64,000 nt of DNA from Lentisphaerota bacterium. GTDB taxonomy: Bacteria > Verrucomicrobiota > Kiritimatiellia > UBA8416 > VGWJ01. Below are positions 42,292 to 57,714 of this stretch, piece by piece. Both the position numbers and the translations under genes were made by a program. The stretch covers positions 1-64,000 of the forward strand of contig VGWJ01000011.1 of the NCBI GenBank assembly GCA_016873635.1, given 5' to 3'. Numbering within the stretch: position 1 is the first letter of the stretch; each line of letters starts with the position of its first letter. The notes under the pieces are model-generated. The model searched no databases. It was given only the letters and a program-made list of their open reading frames with translations, and was not told where the DNA came from.

Positions 42292-45038
42292 ACCTGCAGT
42301 TCGCCAACCCGACGGCGCTGTTGCTGCTGTGGATCGTGCCGCTGGCCGCCGCCGCGTGGATGTGGTCCGCGCGCCGGCGCGAGACGCGCCTGGCGCGCCT
42401 GGTCTCGGCCCGCATGCAGCGCAAGCTGCGGCCGCCGTCCGCCGCCGCCCGCGCGGCCTGGCAGACCGCCCTGACGGCCATGGGCCTGGTGCTGGCGCTG
42501 GCGGCCGCGGCCCGGCCGCGCTGGGGCGCGCGCGAGGAAACCGTGTATGCCCGCGGCCGCAGCCTGATCATCGCCGTGGACGTGTCGCGGTCCATGCTCG
42601 CGGCCGACGTGCATCCCAGCCGCCTGGAACGGGCCAAGGCCGACGTTCTGGACCTGGTCAGGGAGCTGCGCGGCGACCGCGCCGGCCTGATCGCCTTCCG
42701 CCACAAGGCCGCGCTGCTGTGCCCGCTGACGACGGACTACGCCTTCCTCGCCCAGGCGGTTGACGCCATGGACATCGACTCCGCCCCGCGCGGGGCGACG
42801 GACATTGCCGACGCCATCCTCAAGGCCCTCGACGCCTTCAGGGAGGAGGAGGGTTCGCATCGGGCAGTCGTGCTCATTTCCGACGGGGAGGACCTCACCG
42901 GCAGGGCGCTTTCCGCGGCGGAAGAGGCCGGCCGGCGGGGCGTTCCCATCTTCACCGTGGGGCTGGGCAACCGCGAGGGGACGCACATTCCCGACGAGCA
43001 GGGGCGGTTCGTGACGTACCAGGGGGCGAACGTCGTTACGCGGCTCCAGCACGAGACCCTGCACGCCATCGCCACGGCCACGGGCGGCGCCTATGTGCCC
43101 GTGGAAACCGCCGGCATGACCACCGTGACCCTGGGCACGCTATACAGCGAACACCTCCGCCGGATCTCGGCGCAGGAATCGCGGGAACGGCGGGAACTCA
43201 CCCACGTGGAGCGCTACCAGCTGTTCCTGCTGCCCGCCGTGCTGGCTCTGCTCGGAGCGGCCTTCCTGAGCCGCGGCCGGCTCATGCGGTCGGCGGCGCC
43301 GCCGGCCGCGCCGTCGGCCTTGAAGGATCTCAACCCGCCACCGACGGCGCTGCGCGATATCAGCGGCGGCCAGGGCGCCCGGCCCGCGATTCCGGAACGC
43401 GCCCCGGCCCCGACCGAAGGGCGGGGCCACCCCTCCCGGGAGGGGACCGTCCGGTCCACTTCCTCTCTCCTGCCCCCTCCCCGGAGGGGCGCCGCCGCAC
43501 CAGCGGCAGCGGGGTGGGTTCTCGCGTCCGCCTTGACCCTCGCCTTCCACGTCCGGGCGGAGACCAACGCCCCGCCCCCGTCCGTTCCGGCGGGACGCGA
43601 GGGCGGGCGCGCGGCCCAGGCCCTGTTCGACGCGGGCGACTATCCCGCGGCCGCCGCGGCCTACGAGCAGGCCGCCCGGGACGCCGGCGCTGAATTGCGG
43701 CGCGATCTGCGCTACAACGCGGCCGTGGCGTTGTACGAGGCGGGCAGGTTCGACGAGGCCGCCGCCAGACTCAGGGACCTGGCCGCTTCGGACGACGCGG
43801 CCGGAACCTGCTCGGCGCTGGGAACGGCGCTGTATCGATCCGCGGAGCACAGCGCCACGAACGCGGCCGCGCGCGCCGCTCTCCTGCGCGAGGCCGGCGA
43901 AGCCTTCCGCCGCGCCGCGCGCGCCGCGCGCGACCCGGCCGGCCCCCGCCGCGATCTGGACGTGGTGCTCGACCGCTATCCGCGGGCCGACGAAGAGGCC
44001 AGGATCGAGCGACTCATGGAGCAGCACGGCCGGAAGCCCGCCCACGAGATCGCCGGCGACATGCTCGCCGGCCAGCGCGACGTGCTCGCCGCCTTGCGCG
44101 CCGCCGCCACAAACGACAGCCCCTCCCGCGTCGGACAGATGGAGCGCGCCGCCGAGCGACAGGCCGCCGCGGCCGACCTGTGGATCCCGCTGAAGAGCAA
44201 GCTGCTCGCGGAAAACCGGGACCCCGACAAGCAGGCGGTGCTGGCCGACGTTATCGAGAGCACGCGCGACCAGATGCTCGCCGCCGCCGATGTCCTGCGC
44301 GACCTGGACGACGCGCGCGCCGCGGCCGCGGCCGACGCCTCGGGCCGCCGCGTGTACGAGTTCTGGAAGAGCGTCGCGCCCTACGCGCCCCTGCTGGATG
44401 AGGATCTCTGGCGGCAGACCAACACGCTCGCGGCCGTGGACGCCGAACCCGTCAACGGTCAGGCCCTCCGGGAAGCGCAGTCCGACCAGGCGGAAGCCCG
44501 CGAGCTGACGCGCCTCTTCGGCGAGCGCTTCGCCGCCGCCGTCCCCGAGGGCGGCGAGCCGGACGGCGACGGGACCAACGCCGCGCCGCGCATTACCGCC
44601 GAGACAAGGCAGAAAATACTCAACCTGGCCGAGCAGGCGGCCGCGGCGCAGGAAACGGCCGCCGCGGCTCTGGAGCGCTCCGCGATCGCCGACGCCCGGC
44701 CGGAACAGCGCCGCGCCGCCGTGATTCTGCAGGAAATCCGCGACCTGCTGCCCAAGGACCGCGGGCAGGCCCAGCAGGAACAACCGCAGCAGGATCAATC
44801 GGACAAGTCGGACAAGTCGGACCAGCCCGACCTCCAGCCGCAGGAGCAGCCGGCCGAACAGCCGCGGGAGCAGCCCGCGGAGAAGCCCGGACAACCCGAA
44901 CCCAAGCCGGGCGAACTCTCCCGGAAAGAGCTGGAACGTTTGCTGGAAAAGGCCTTGCGGCGCGAGAAAGAACACGAAGACGAGCTGCGCCAACGCATCC
45001 GCCGGATTCCGATGTCGCCGTCGGAAAGGGATTGGTAG
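42288..45038 (+). CDS. BatB-like VWA protein fused to BatC-like TPR protein
   Basis: IIAVDVSRSMLAADVHPSRLERAKADVLDL; after the terminal TM an element-encoded linker, then signal-peptide-like WVLASALTLAFHVRAE and TPR (AQALFDAGDYPAAAAAYEQAARD). GTG start. Confidence 0.85.
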   Translation: MNLQFANPTALLLLWIVPLAAAAWMWSARRRETRLARLVSARMQRKLRPPSAAARAAWQTALTAMGLVLALAAAARPRWGAREETVYARGRSLIIAVDVSRSMLAADVHPSRLERAKADVLDLVRELRGDRAGLIAFRHKAALLCPLTTDYAFLAQAVDAMDIDSAPRGATDIADAILKALDAFREEEGSHRAVVLISDGEDLTGRALSAAEEAGRRGVPIFTVGLGNREGTHIPDEQGRFVTYQGANVVTRLQHETLHAIATATGGAYVPVETAGMTTVTLGTLYSEHLRRISAQESRERRELTHVERYQLFLLPAVLALLGAAFLSRGRLMRSAAPPAAPSALKDLNPPPTALRDISGGQGARPAIPERAPAPTEGRGHPSREGTVRSTSSLLPPPRRGAAAPAAAGWVLASALTLAFHVRAETNAPPPSVPAGREGGRAAQALFDAGDYPAAAAAYEQAARDAGAELRRDLRYNAAVALYEAGRFDEAAARLRDLAASDDAAGTCSALGTALYRSAEHSATNAAARAALLREAGEAFRRAARAARDPAGPRRDLDVVLDRYPRADEEARIERLMEQHGRKPAHEIAGDMLAGQRDVLAALRAAATNDSPSRVGQMERAAERQAAAADLWIPLKSKLLAENRDPDKQAVLADVIESTRDQMLAAADVLRDLDDARAAAAADASGRRVYEFWKSVAPYAPLLDEDLWRQTNTLAAVDAEPVNGQALREAQSDQAEARELTRLFGERFAAAVPEGGEPDGDGTNAAPRITAETRQKILNLAEQAAAAQETAAAALERSAIADARPEQRRAAVILQEIRDLLPKDRGQAQQEQPQQDQSDKSDKSDQPDLQPQEQPAEQPREQPAEKPGQPEPKPGELSRKELERLLEKALRREKEHEDELRQRIRRIPMSPSERDW
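43386..43518 (+). repeat. Nested GC-rich hairpin element, copy A (inside CDS)
   Basis: GCGATTCCGGAAC..GGCCCCG..CGGGGCCACCCCTCCCGGGAGGGGA .. CCCCTCCCCGGAGGGGCGCCGCCGCACCAGCGGCAGCGGGGTGGG. Confidence 0.85.
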
Positions 45039-47790: not shown

Positions 47791-49244
47791 ATACGCGCGC
47801 CTTCTCTTCGTCCGGGGCGGGTCGCTGCGATTCCGGAACCCACCCCGGCCCCGCCCGGTGGGCGGGGGCACCCCTCCCGGGAGGGGAACCCACCCCGCCC
47901 CCGCTTCCAGCGGGGGCACCCCTCCCGGGAGGGGATTGTCCTGTTACCTGCCTCTCTCAGATCCCCTCCTCGGAGGGGTGCCGCCGCGCAGGCGGCGGCG
48001 GGGTGGGTCTTTTCTCCCTCGCCCTTTTCTCCGGCTTCGTCCTCCTCTTCACGCCGGCCGCGACGCGCGCCCAGTTCCCCGCGCCGCTGGTTGCGGCGGA
48101 ACTCACGGCGGAACGCGCGGATATCTACGTCAACGAACATTTCAGCGTGGTTCTGGAGGTTCGCGCCGGCGGCGCGCCGATCCGCCCCAGCTTCAAGCTG
48201 ACGTCCCTGCCTCCTCCCGGCGTGCTGACCTTCGACCAATTCCGCGAACTGCGGGCCGAACGCCGTATCGAGGATGGCCGCGCGGTGGATGTGCGACGCT
48301 TCCGGACCGCCGCCCGGGCGCCCGCGGCGGGCCCCGTCGAGGCAGCCCCGACGCTGATCGTGGAGTCCTTCATGCCGGGCCGCGCCTACGAAGTGCCCGT
48401 GACGCCGCTGCGCCTGAACGTGCGCGAACTGCCCGCCGAGGGAAGGCCCGACGATTTCTCGGGCGCGGTCGGCACATTCCGCCTGGAGGCCGGCGTGACG
48501 CCGGCCGAGATTGTTCTGGGCGACCTGGTGACCGCGCGAATCACGGTCTCGGGCACGGGGCATTTTCCGGAGCGTGCGCCCGCCGTTGTTGCTGACGCGC
48601 CCGGCCTCTTCAAGATCTACGAGCCGTCACTCGTCTCCCGGGAGGAGAACAGGCTGGTCTATGAGCAGGTCATCGTGCCGCAGGGCACCAACGCCGCGGC
48701 GGTGCCGGCGGTGCGTTTGTCGTTTTTCGAGCCGCTGTCCGGCGCGTACGTCAACCTCAGCCAGGGACCCTTCCCCCTGACCTACGCGCCGAAACGCGAG
48801 GGCGCGGCCTTCGCGCGCTACCGCCCGGCGGAGCAAGCGGGCGTCGGCGACGCAAGGCGGCCGGGACGGACCGCGTCCCTGGGTTACGCCGCCCGCATGG
48901 CGCTGGCCGCCGTCGCCTATTGGATCCTCGCCGCGGGCGCCGCGTTCGCGGCGGCCGTGCGGGCCGCACGCAAGCGCGCCGCGGCGCTTGCGGCCCTGCT
49001 TGCGGCGGCGGCGCTGTTCGCGCCTTTCCGCGCGGGCCTGCGCGCCCTGCTCGCCCCGCCGCGGAACGCCGTCATGGCGCGCGACGCCACCGCCCGCTTC
49101 GCGCCGGCGCACGCGTCCGTCGCCGGGTTCGAGCTCTCCGCCGGCACGGCCGTGCGGCTCGTCGAAACGTCCGGCGACTGGGCCAAGATCGAGTCCCGGG
49201 GCAATCGCGGCTGGGTGCCGCGCGCGAGCCTCGAGGCGCGGTGA
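47787..49244 (+). CDS. Second BatD-like protein with C-terminal bacterial SH3 domain (alternative GTG start at 48003)
   Basis: ADIYVNEHFSVVLEVRAGGAPIRPSFKLTSLPP...; C-terminal SAGTAVRLVETSGDWAKIESRGNRGWVPRASLE. ATGA overlap with the upstream gene. Confidence 0.78.
   Translation: MNTRAFSSSGAGRCDSGTHPGPARWAGAPLPGGEPTPPPLPAGAPLPGGDCPVTCLSQIPSSEGCRRAGGGGVGLFSLALFSGFVLLFTPAATRAQFPAPLVAAELTAERADIYVNEHFSVVLEVRAGGAPIRPSFKLTSLPPPGVLTFDQFRELRAERRIEDGRAVDVRRFRTAARAPAAGPVEAAPTLIVESFMPGRAYEVPVTPLRLNVRELPAEGRPDDFSGAVGTFRLEAGVTPAEIVLGDLVTARITVSGTGHFPERAPAVVADAPGLFKIYEPSLVSREENRLVYEQVIVPQGTNAAAVPAVRLSFFEPLSGAYVNLSQGPFPLTYAPKREGAAFARYRPAEQAGVGDARRPGRTASLGYAARMALAAVAYWILAAGAAFAAAVRAARKRAAALAALLAAAALFAPFRAGLRALLAPPRNAVMARDATARFAPAHASVAGFELSAGTAVRLVETSGDWAKIESRGNRGWVPRASLEAR
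47827..48007 (+). repeat. Nested GC-rich hairpin element, copy B (between ATG and signal peptide)
   Basis: Two forward modules CCCACCCCG-[stem]-CACCCCTCCCGGGAGGGGA and one inverted module TCCCCTCCTCGGAGGGGTG-[stem]-CGGGGTGGG. Confidence 0.92.
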
Positions 49245-57445: not shown

Positions 57446-57504
57446 GGCGTATCGTGCTCAGGTCGACGCCCTCACCTCAACGGTCGTTCCGCGGGCGACG
57501 CCAA

Positions 57505-57683
57505 CCCACCCCGCCCCCGCCGGAGGCGGGGACACCCCTCTTGGGAGGGGAGAACCCACCCCGCCCGCGCTTGCGCGCGGGCACCCCTCCCAGGAGGGGA
57601 TCTGTCATTGTCGATGCGATCGCTTTCCCAAGATCCCCTCCTGCGGAGGGGTGGCCCCGCCCACAGGGCGGGGCCGGGGTGGG
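57505..57683. repeat. Nested GC-rich hairpin element, copy C (intergenic)
   Basis: Same architecture as copy B: two CCCACCCCG-[stem]-CACCCCTC..GAGGGGA modules plus one inverted module ending CCGGGGTGGG. Confidence 0.93.
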
Positions 57684-57714
57684 TCCCCCATAGTGAAGCT
57701 TCCGCGCCGCCTCT

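Follow-up and report, generated by a model that had tools for sequence, protein, structure and literature searches.

The BoxC/PIT/TM_ECO repeats of E. coli form a triplex in vitro and have been linked to genome instability (PMC4666352, Holder et al. 2015), but the triplex was not seen by in vivo footprinting (PMC4666352). The repeats of the Methanomicrobiaceae fold as an antiparallel triplex or as a G-quadruplex; here CD and S1 probing support the triplex (PMC8044849). Concerning the question whether bacterial intrastrand triplexes act, in vitro folding is thus known and in vivo footprinting was negative. The family described below adds comparative evidence. Its modules are in our judgement probably class II (purine-motif) intrastrand-triplex DNA elements, capped by a hairpin and spread as non-autonomous units.

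Modules in the window

The window, that is the whole 64-kb stretch of DNA that was analysed, contains three composite clusters (43386-43518, 47827-48007, and 57505-57683) with conserved boxes and self-complementary apical stems at the places given in an earlier note on this DNA. Eight modules were found across the three clusters, in agreement with the "eight or so" claimed there. The described arrangement of two forward modules and one inverted module holds for clusters 2 and 3, whereas cluster 1 consists of one forward and one inverted module, the forward module having a decayed outer box (CGCGCCCC). In the following list the strand is the one which reads pyrimidine arm (Y), purine arm (R), hairpin, and outer box (H).

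43398..43445, minus strand: module 1a, H box decayed to GGGGCGCG
43474..43519, plus strand: module 1b, CCCCTCC-CC-GGAGGGG, apical hairpin, GGGGTGG
47827..48010, no strand assigned: composite cluster 2, made up of two forward modules and, beyond a spacer, an inverted one
47838..47886, minus strand: module 2a
47888..47934, minus strand: module 2b, head-to-tail behind module 2a
47963..48008, plus strand: module 2c, partner of 2a/2b in inverted orientation, separated from them by about 28 nt
57504..57550, minus strand: module 3a, with the Y-R stem reduced to 6 bp (CCCCTC/GAGGGG)
57554..57599, minus strand: module 3b
57635..57684, plus strand: module 3c, inverted partner, with the longest apical stem (10 bp)

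The palindromic core sequence CCCTCCCGGGAGGGG was matched 14 times in the window when up to two mismatches were allowed (7 sites on both strands, 0.75 matches expected), a count reached in none of 100 shuffles. Folded as single-stranded DNA, the G-rich strand of five of the eight modules beat shuffled sequences (z from -3.0 to -3.9); the stretches 47836-47888, 43397-43448, and 43473-43520 were not above shuffles (z from -0.3 to -1.1). For the entire 184-nt cluster 2 a z of -7.1 was obtained.

Cluster 1 (43386-43518) lies inside a 916-aa ORF, between its VWA and TPR parts, and cluster 2 (47827-48010) is situated in a 485-aa ORF just ahead of a hydrophobic, signal-peptide-like stretch. Open frames occur frequently in DNA of such G+C content, so the frame running through clusters 1 and 2 does not prove an in-frame insertion.

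The outer box as a proposed third strand

On the G-rich strand a module consists of Y (CCCCTCC), usually 2 nt, R (GGAGGGG), a T, a variable hairpin, H (GGGGTGG), and GT. The single T after GGGG is a linker ahead of the stem in nearly all copies. H is the reverse complement of nothing in its own module; instead it mirrors R, with T opposite A, and hence suits the role of third strand in a DNA triplex. The basal boxes are conserved, as had been noted before, but they are not merely a hairpin plus a spare repeat, since the outer box mirrors the purine arm.

We searched the window for class II triplexes by a motif-free rule, in which the third strand is antiparallel to the purine arm, with G placed on G:C and either T or A placed on A:T. 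Seven matches were found, all inside the three clusters; six of them are modules, and the seventh combines the arms of one module with boxes that belong to the adjacent one. The same search with a second loop of 1-6 nt gave no match in the 64-kb window, and there was none in 60 dinucleotide shuffles of the window. The class II intrastrand order is present, with Y, R, and H on one strand and H antiparallel-compatible with R. A separate comparison of antiparallel with parallel third strands did not discriminate between the two for near-symmetric G-rich boxes.

We propose that Y (CCCCTCC) would pair with R (GGAGGGG) on the G-rich strand, that the one T and the variable hairpin, which often has a GNA or GNNA loop, would turn the strand back, and that H (GGGGTGG) would run antiparallel along R, so that six G.G:C triplets and a single T.A:T triplet would form. 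In cells the triplex would probably be transient only, forming on single-stranded DNA in replication or transposition, and selection would act on the triplex fold.

Changes in the purine arm and in H

When Y-R hairpins were fetched without requiring H, an H box was present in 29 of 29 cases, compared with about 15% by chance. With the T/A positions freed, the T opposite A:T was retained in 45 of the 46 listed copies. The informative variants come from other genomes: where R reads AGAGGGG, H was GGGGTGT in 7/7 cases, a form found in 0/191 of the modules with R GGAGGGG; the latter had GGGGTGG in 184/191. The same pairing of AGAGGGG with GGGGTGT was counted by hand in 44/44 listed copies of the Aminicenantes and 80/80 of the Nitrospinota, together 124/124, and in a Nitrospinota genome the AGAGGGG and GGAGGGG subfamilies occur side by side with no mixtures. 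Because this compensated variant sits in paralogues of two phyla, it may have arisen by no more than one or two independent switches.

In 24 copies Y has a T but R keeps its G. In all 24 of them (hand count) H likewise retains G, so that H follows R; a plainer reading of these copies is that the Y base is a mere loop change. Four Cytophagales copies (genome G102) form a counter-case, as they have CCCCGCC/GGCGGGG, where the central base of R is a pyrimidine, and H nevertheless retains T. Taken as a whole, matched change in all three strands suggests a fold preserved by evolution. The naturally occurring matched R/H variants are the most useful outcome, as they make triplex function testable.

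The modules could alternatively be read as transcribed RNA structures, acting as regulatory elements or bidirectional terminators. Their hairpins are strong and copies adjoin genes on either strand, as this reading would have it, but the window gave 0 Rfam matches and the orientations of neighbouring genes are mixed. Moreover, RNA is reported not to support purine-motif triplexes (PMC4666352), and the covariation of H and R therefore points to DNA. We regard an RNA element as very unlikely.

Apical hairpins

According to the earlier note the apical stems differ and yet stay self-complementary. This was confirmed in the window, and across genomes the stems were paired above control: for 84 distinct apical sequences 85.5% of cells were paired, compared with 74.9 +/- 1.3% after the 3' halves had been dealt anew among stems of equal length (pair counts made by script). 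A looser test on the window genome alone gave 115 pairs versus 99.3 +/- 5.0, a weaker result in which spurious matches are included. The concern that pairing might not exceed base composition can be set aside, since across genomes the covariation of the stems goes further than composition would give.

In Chamaesiphon, the apical position of a single orthologous site is occupied by GCCCTTTGGGC, GAATGCAGCCTTGCGGCTGATTC, and GATAGAGCCTGCGGCTCTATC, which are wholly different, each being self-complementary. Template switching at quasi-palindromes, which keeps stems perfect without selection on structure, would also produce stems of this kind. It leaves unexplained, however, the mirror-type H, the constancy of H across phyla, and the joint change of Y, R, and H, and we consider it very unlikely to account for the family. 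Of selection and a copying mechanism, the two causes named in the earlier note, non-selective copying could give rise to palindromic stems but would not lead one to expect the third-strand changes.

The apical hairpins also bear on which strand folds. G.A or A.G mismatches number 40 on the G-rich strand and 3 on the opposite strand, and the apical loops of the G-rich strand are mostly GNA or GNNA. Such loops, as well as tandem G.A pairs, are stable in DNA. The mismatch bias and the loops point to the G-rich strand as the one that folds.

Distribution

The family is not confined to the contig of the window, on which its standing as a family had been made to depend: further copies were found on five other contigs of the same genome (C48, C66, C94, C113, and C127). 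The strict pattern occurred in 6/338 sampled genomes of the window's phylum, and the Y-R core was matched in 12/95 relatives. A scan of GTDB genomes matched at least 118 stretches. Among the listed matches are Binatota, Cyanobacteria, Acidobacteriota, Aminicenantes, Kiritimatiellia and other PVC bacteria, as well as Nitrospinota, Ignavibacteria, Chloroflexi, Bacteroidetes, and others. By a freer pattern 1 to 145 copies per genome were counted in 40 genomes, mostly chosen as carriers. Many of the records are MAGs and single occurrences may therefore be binning errors. On these counts the family is patchy within its phylum yet spread over many phyla.

Viral carriage was limited to 4 matching IMG/VR contigs. 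A plasmid search with a 40-nt consensus gave no match, for which the low-complexity filter may matter. Gene families recurring beside the elements formed clusters of at most 4 loci, with nothing consistent among them.

Some individual loci were observed in addition. On contig C48 of the window genome (G000:C48, L006 1499-1680) a 63-bp unit is repeated three times in tandem, with one module each and nearly identical apical stems. In another genome (G094:C5, L021 92-1171) a direct repeat of about 150 bp that includes a degenerate module lies on both sides of two small genes, which, judged by eye, resemble a toxin-antitoxin pair. Chamaesiphon G382 (L283, L263) contains further triplex-compatible repeat families with short second loops, one combining R GGAGAGGGG with H GGGGTGAGG, the other reading AGGGGGA in both R and H.

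Module pairs and mobility

Single modules make up 163 of the 194 clusters. There are 29 inverted module pairs, 20 with H outward and 9 with H inward. The occurrence of such REPIN-like pairs fits a REP/REPIN-type element, whose hairpins would be recognition sites of a Y1/HUH transposase (RAYT, TnpA-REP) with part of GGGGTGG as guide sequence. Y1_Tnp genes are in fact present in the window genome and in 14 of the 15 element-bearing genomes searched. However, at 34 Y1_Tnp loci there was no full module within about 1.5 kb, one locus having a bare Y-R hairpin about 1.4 kb off, and a genome with about 90 copies gave no Y1_Tnp match. REPs are defined by a GT[AG]G foot on the 5' side of the hairpin base (PMC6006769, PMC3733652), which the modules do not regularly have, and they did not pass as REPs when tested for the foot tags GT[AG]G or CGTC. 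This alternative is unlikely. The search for a Y1_Tnp/RAYT partner covered the window genome and the 15 element-bearing genomes and gave no such gene near a full module.

Returning to triplex modules spread as non-autonomous units, their vehicle may be visible in the Nitrospinota. In genome G103 a module pair lies inside a unit of 250-360 bp with terminal inverted repeats AGAAGCTGTCTTGAAAA... (L354-L368), and a 3-bp TTA/TAA repeat is found at the ends of about 4 of 7 complete copies. The end sequence AGCTGTCTTGAAAAAA has 72 exact matches in this genome. By these features the unit appears to be a MITE. A search for an autonomous copy found both ends on one contig at a distance of about 290-330 bp and none longer. 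In Chamaesiphon a composite framed by inverted ends GCGGAGATCT combines a hairpin-capped with a short-loop triplex unit; at one site four species carry it and two others (G388, G389) do not, although the gap is not base-precise.

Around the copies of the window genome neither an outer inverted repeat nor a target duplication was found, and we infer mobility there only from the multiple similar composites. We suggest that the modules would spread as non-autonomous units, that in at least one lineage they would be cargo of MITEs moved in trans by a putative transposase, and that the copies of the window genome would have spread by a similar route. Of the non-autonomous mobile or regulatory element proposed earlier, the dispersed, structure-conserved, and non-autonomous character is upheld by the other contigs and by the Nitrospinota MITEs, whereas a regulatory role is unsupported.

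Comparison with known repeat systems

Read from sequence, the Y-R-H anatomy, the apical covariation, the joint change of Y, R, and H, the patchy multi-copy spread, and the MITE-like ends in the Nitrospinota are evident. On this basis the family appears to be a real and widespread hairpin-capped variant of the known intrastrand-triplex repeats. More tentatively, and with less than even confidence, these could be pan-bacterial dispersed DNA elements whose selected triplex and cap form on cellular single-stranded DNA and are recognised by a dedicated enzyme or by the replication fork; three-strand covariation would then mark a DNA triplex that has a biological role. Triplex repeats with a long hairpin loop fall outside the published loop-limited searches, and the class is therefore probably larger than catalogued. 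A search of the open-licence literature by sequence words found no description of the exact repeat.

With BoxC/PIT/TM_ECO the family shares the arrangement Y-R-H within a single strand, purine-motif triplets in which T or A faces A, and dispersed copies with inverted pairs among them. In TM_ECO, however, the arms CCCTCNCCC are 9 nt and the second loop 3 nt long, whereas the modules of the window family have 7-nt arms and a covarying hairpin as second loop; accordingly, they do not match the TM_ECO consensus CCCTCNCCC-N3-6-GGGNGAGGG-N3-GGGNGAGGG with its 3-nt second loop. Besides the arm sequence, it is chiefly the cap that sets the window family apart. H points inward in 4 of 5 E. coli pairs (Table 1, PMC4666352), whereas the outward orientation is commoner in the window family. 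The Methanomicrobiaceae repeats are alike in that a third strand GGGGTGGGG lies against GGGGAGGGG with T opposite A, but they are archaeal, have short loops, and follow the reverse order H-R-Y (class I) instead of Y-R-H.

REP and REPIN sequences (PMC2817692, PMC3116915, PMC3733652) are likewise short and palindromic, occur in many copies with a patchy distribution, and often form inverted pairs. The window family differs from them by its third-strand box and by being without the GTAG/CGTC foot tag and, at the loci searched, without an adjoining Y1 transposase. MITEs, finally, are resembled by the Nitrospinota pairs, which lie in units bounded by terminal inverted repeats, with short repeats of the target; in contrast to a MITE as such, the triplex modules are internal and common to units whose outer sequences differ between phyla.
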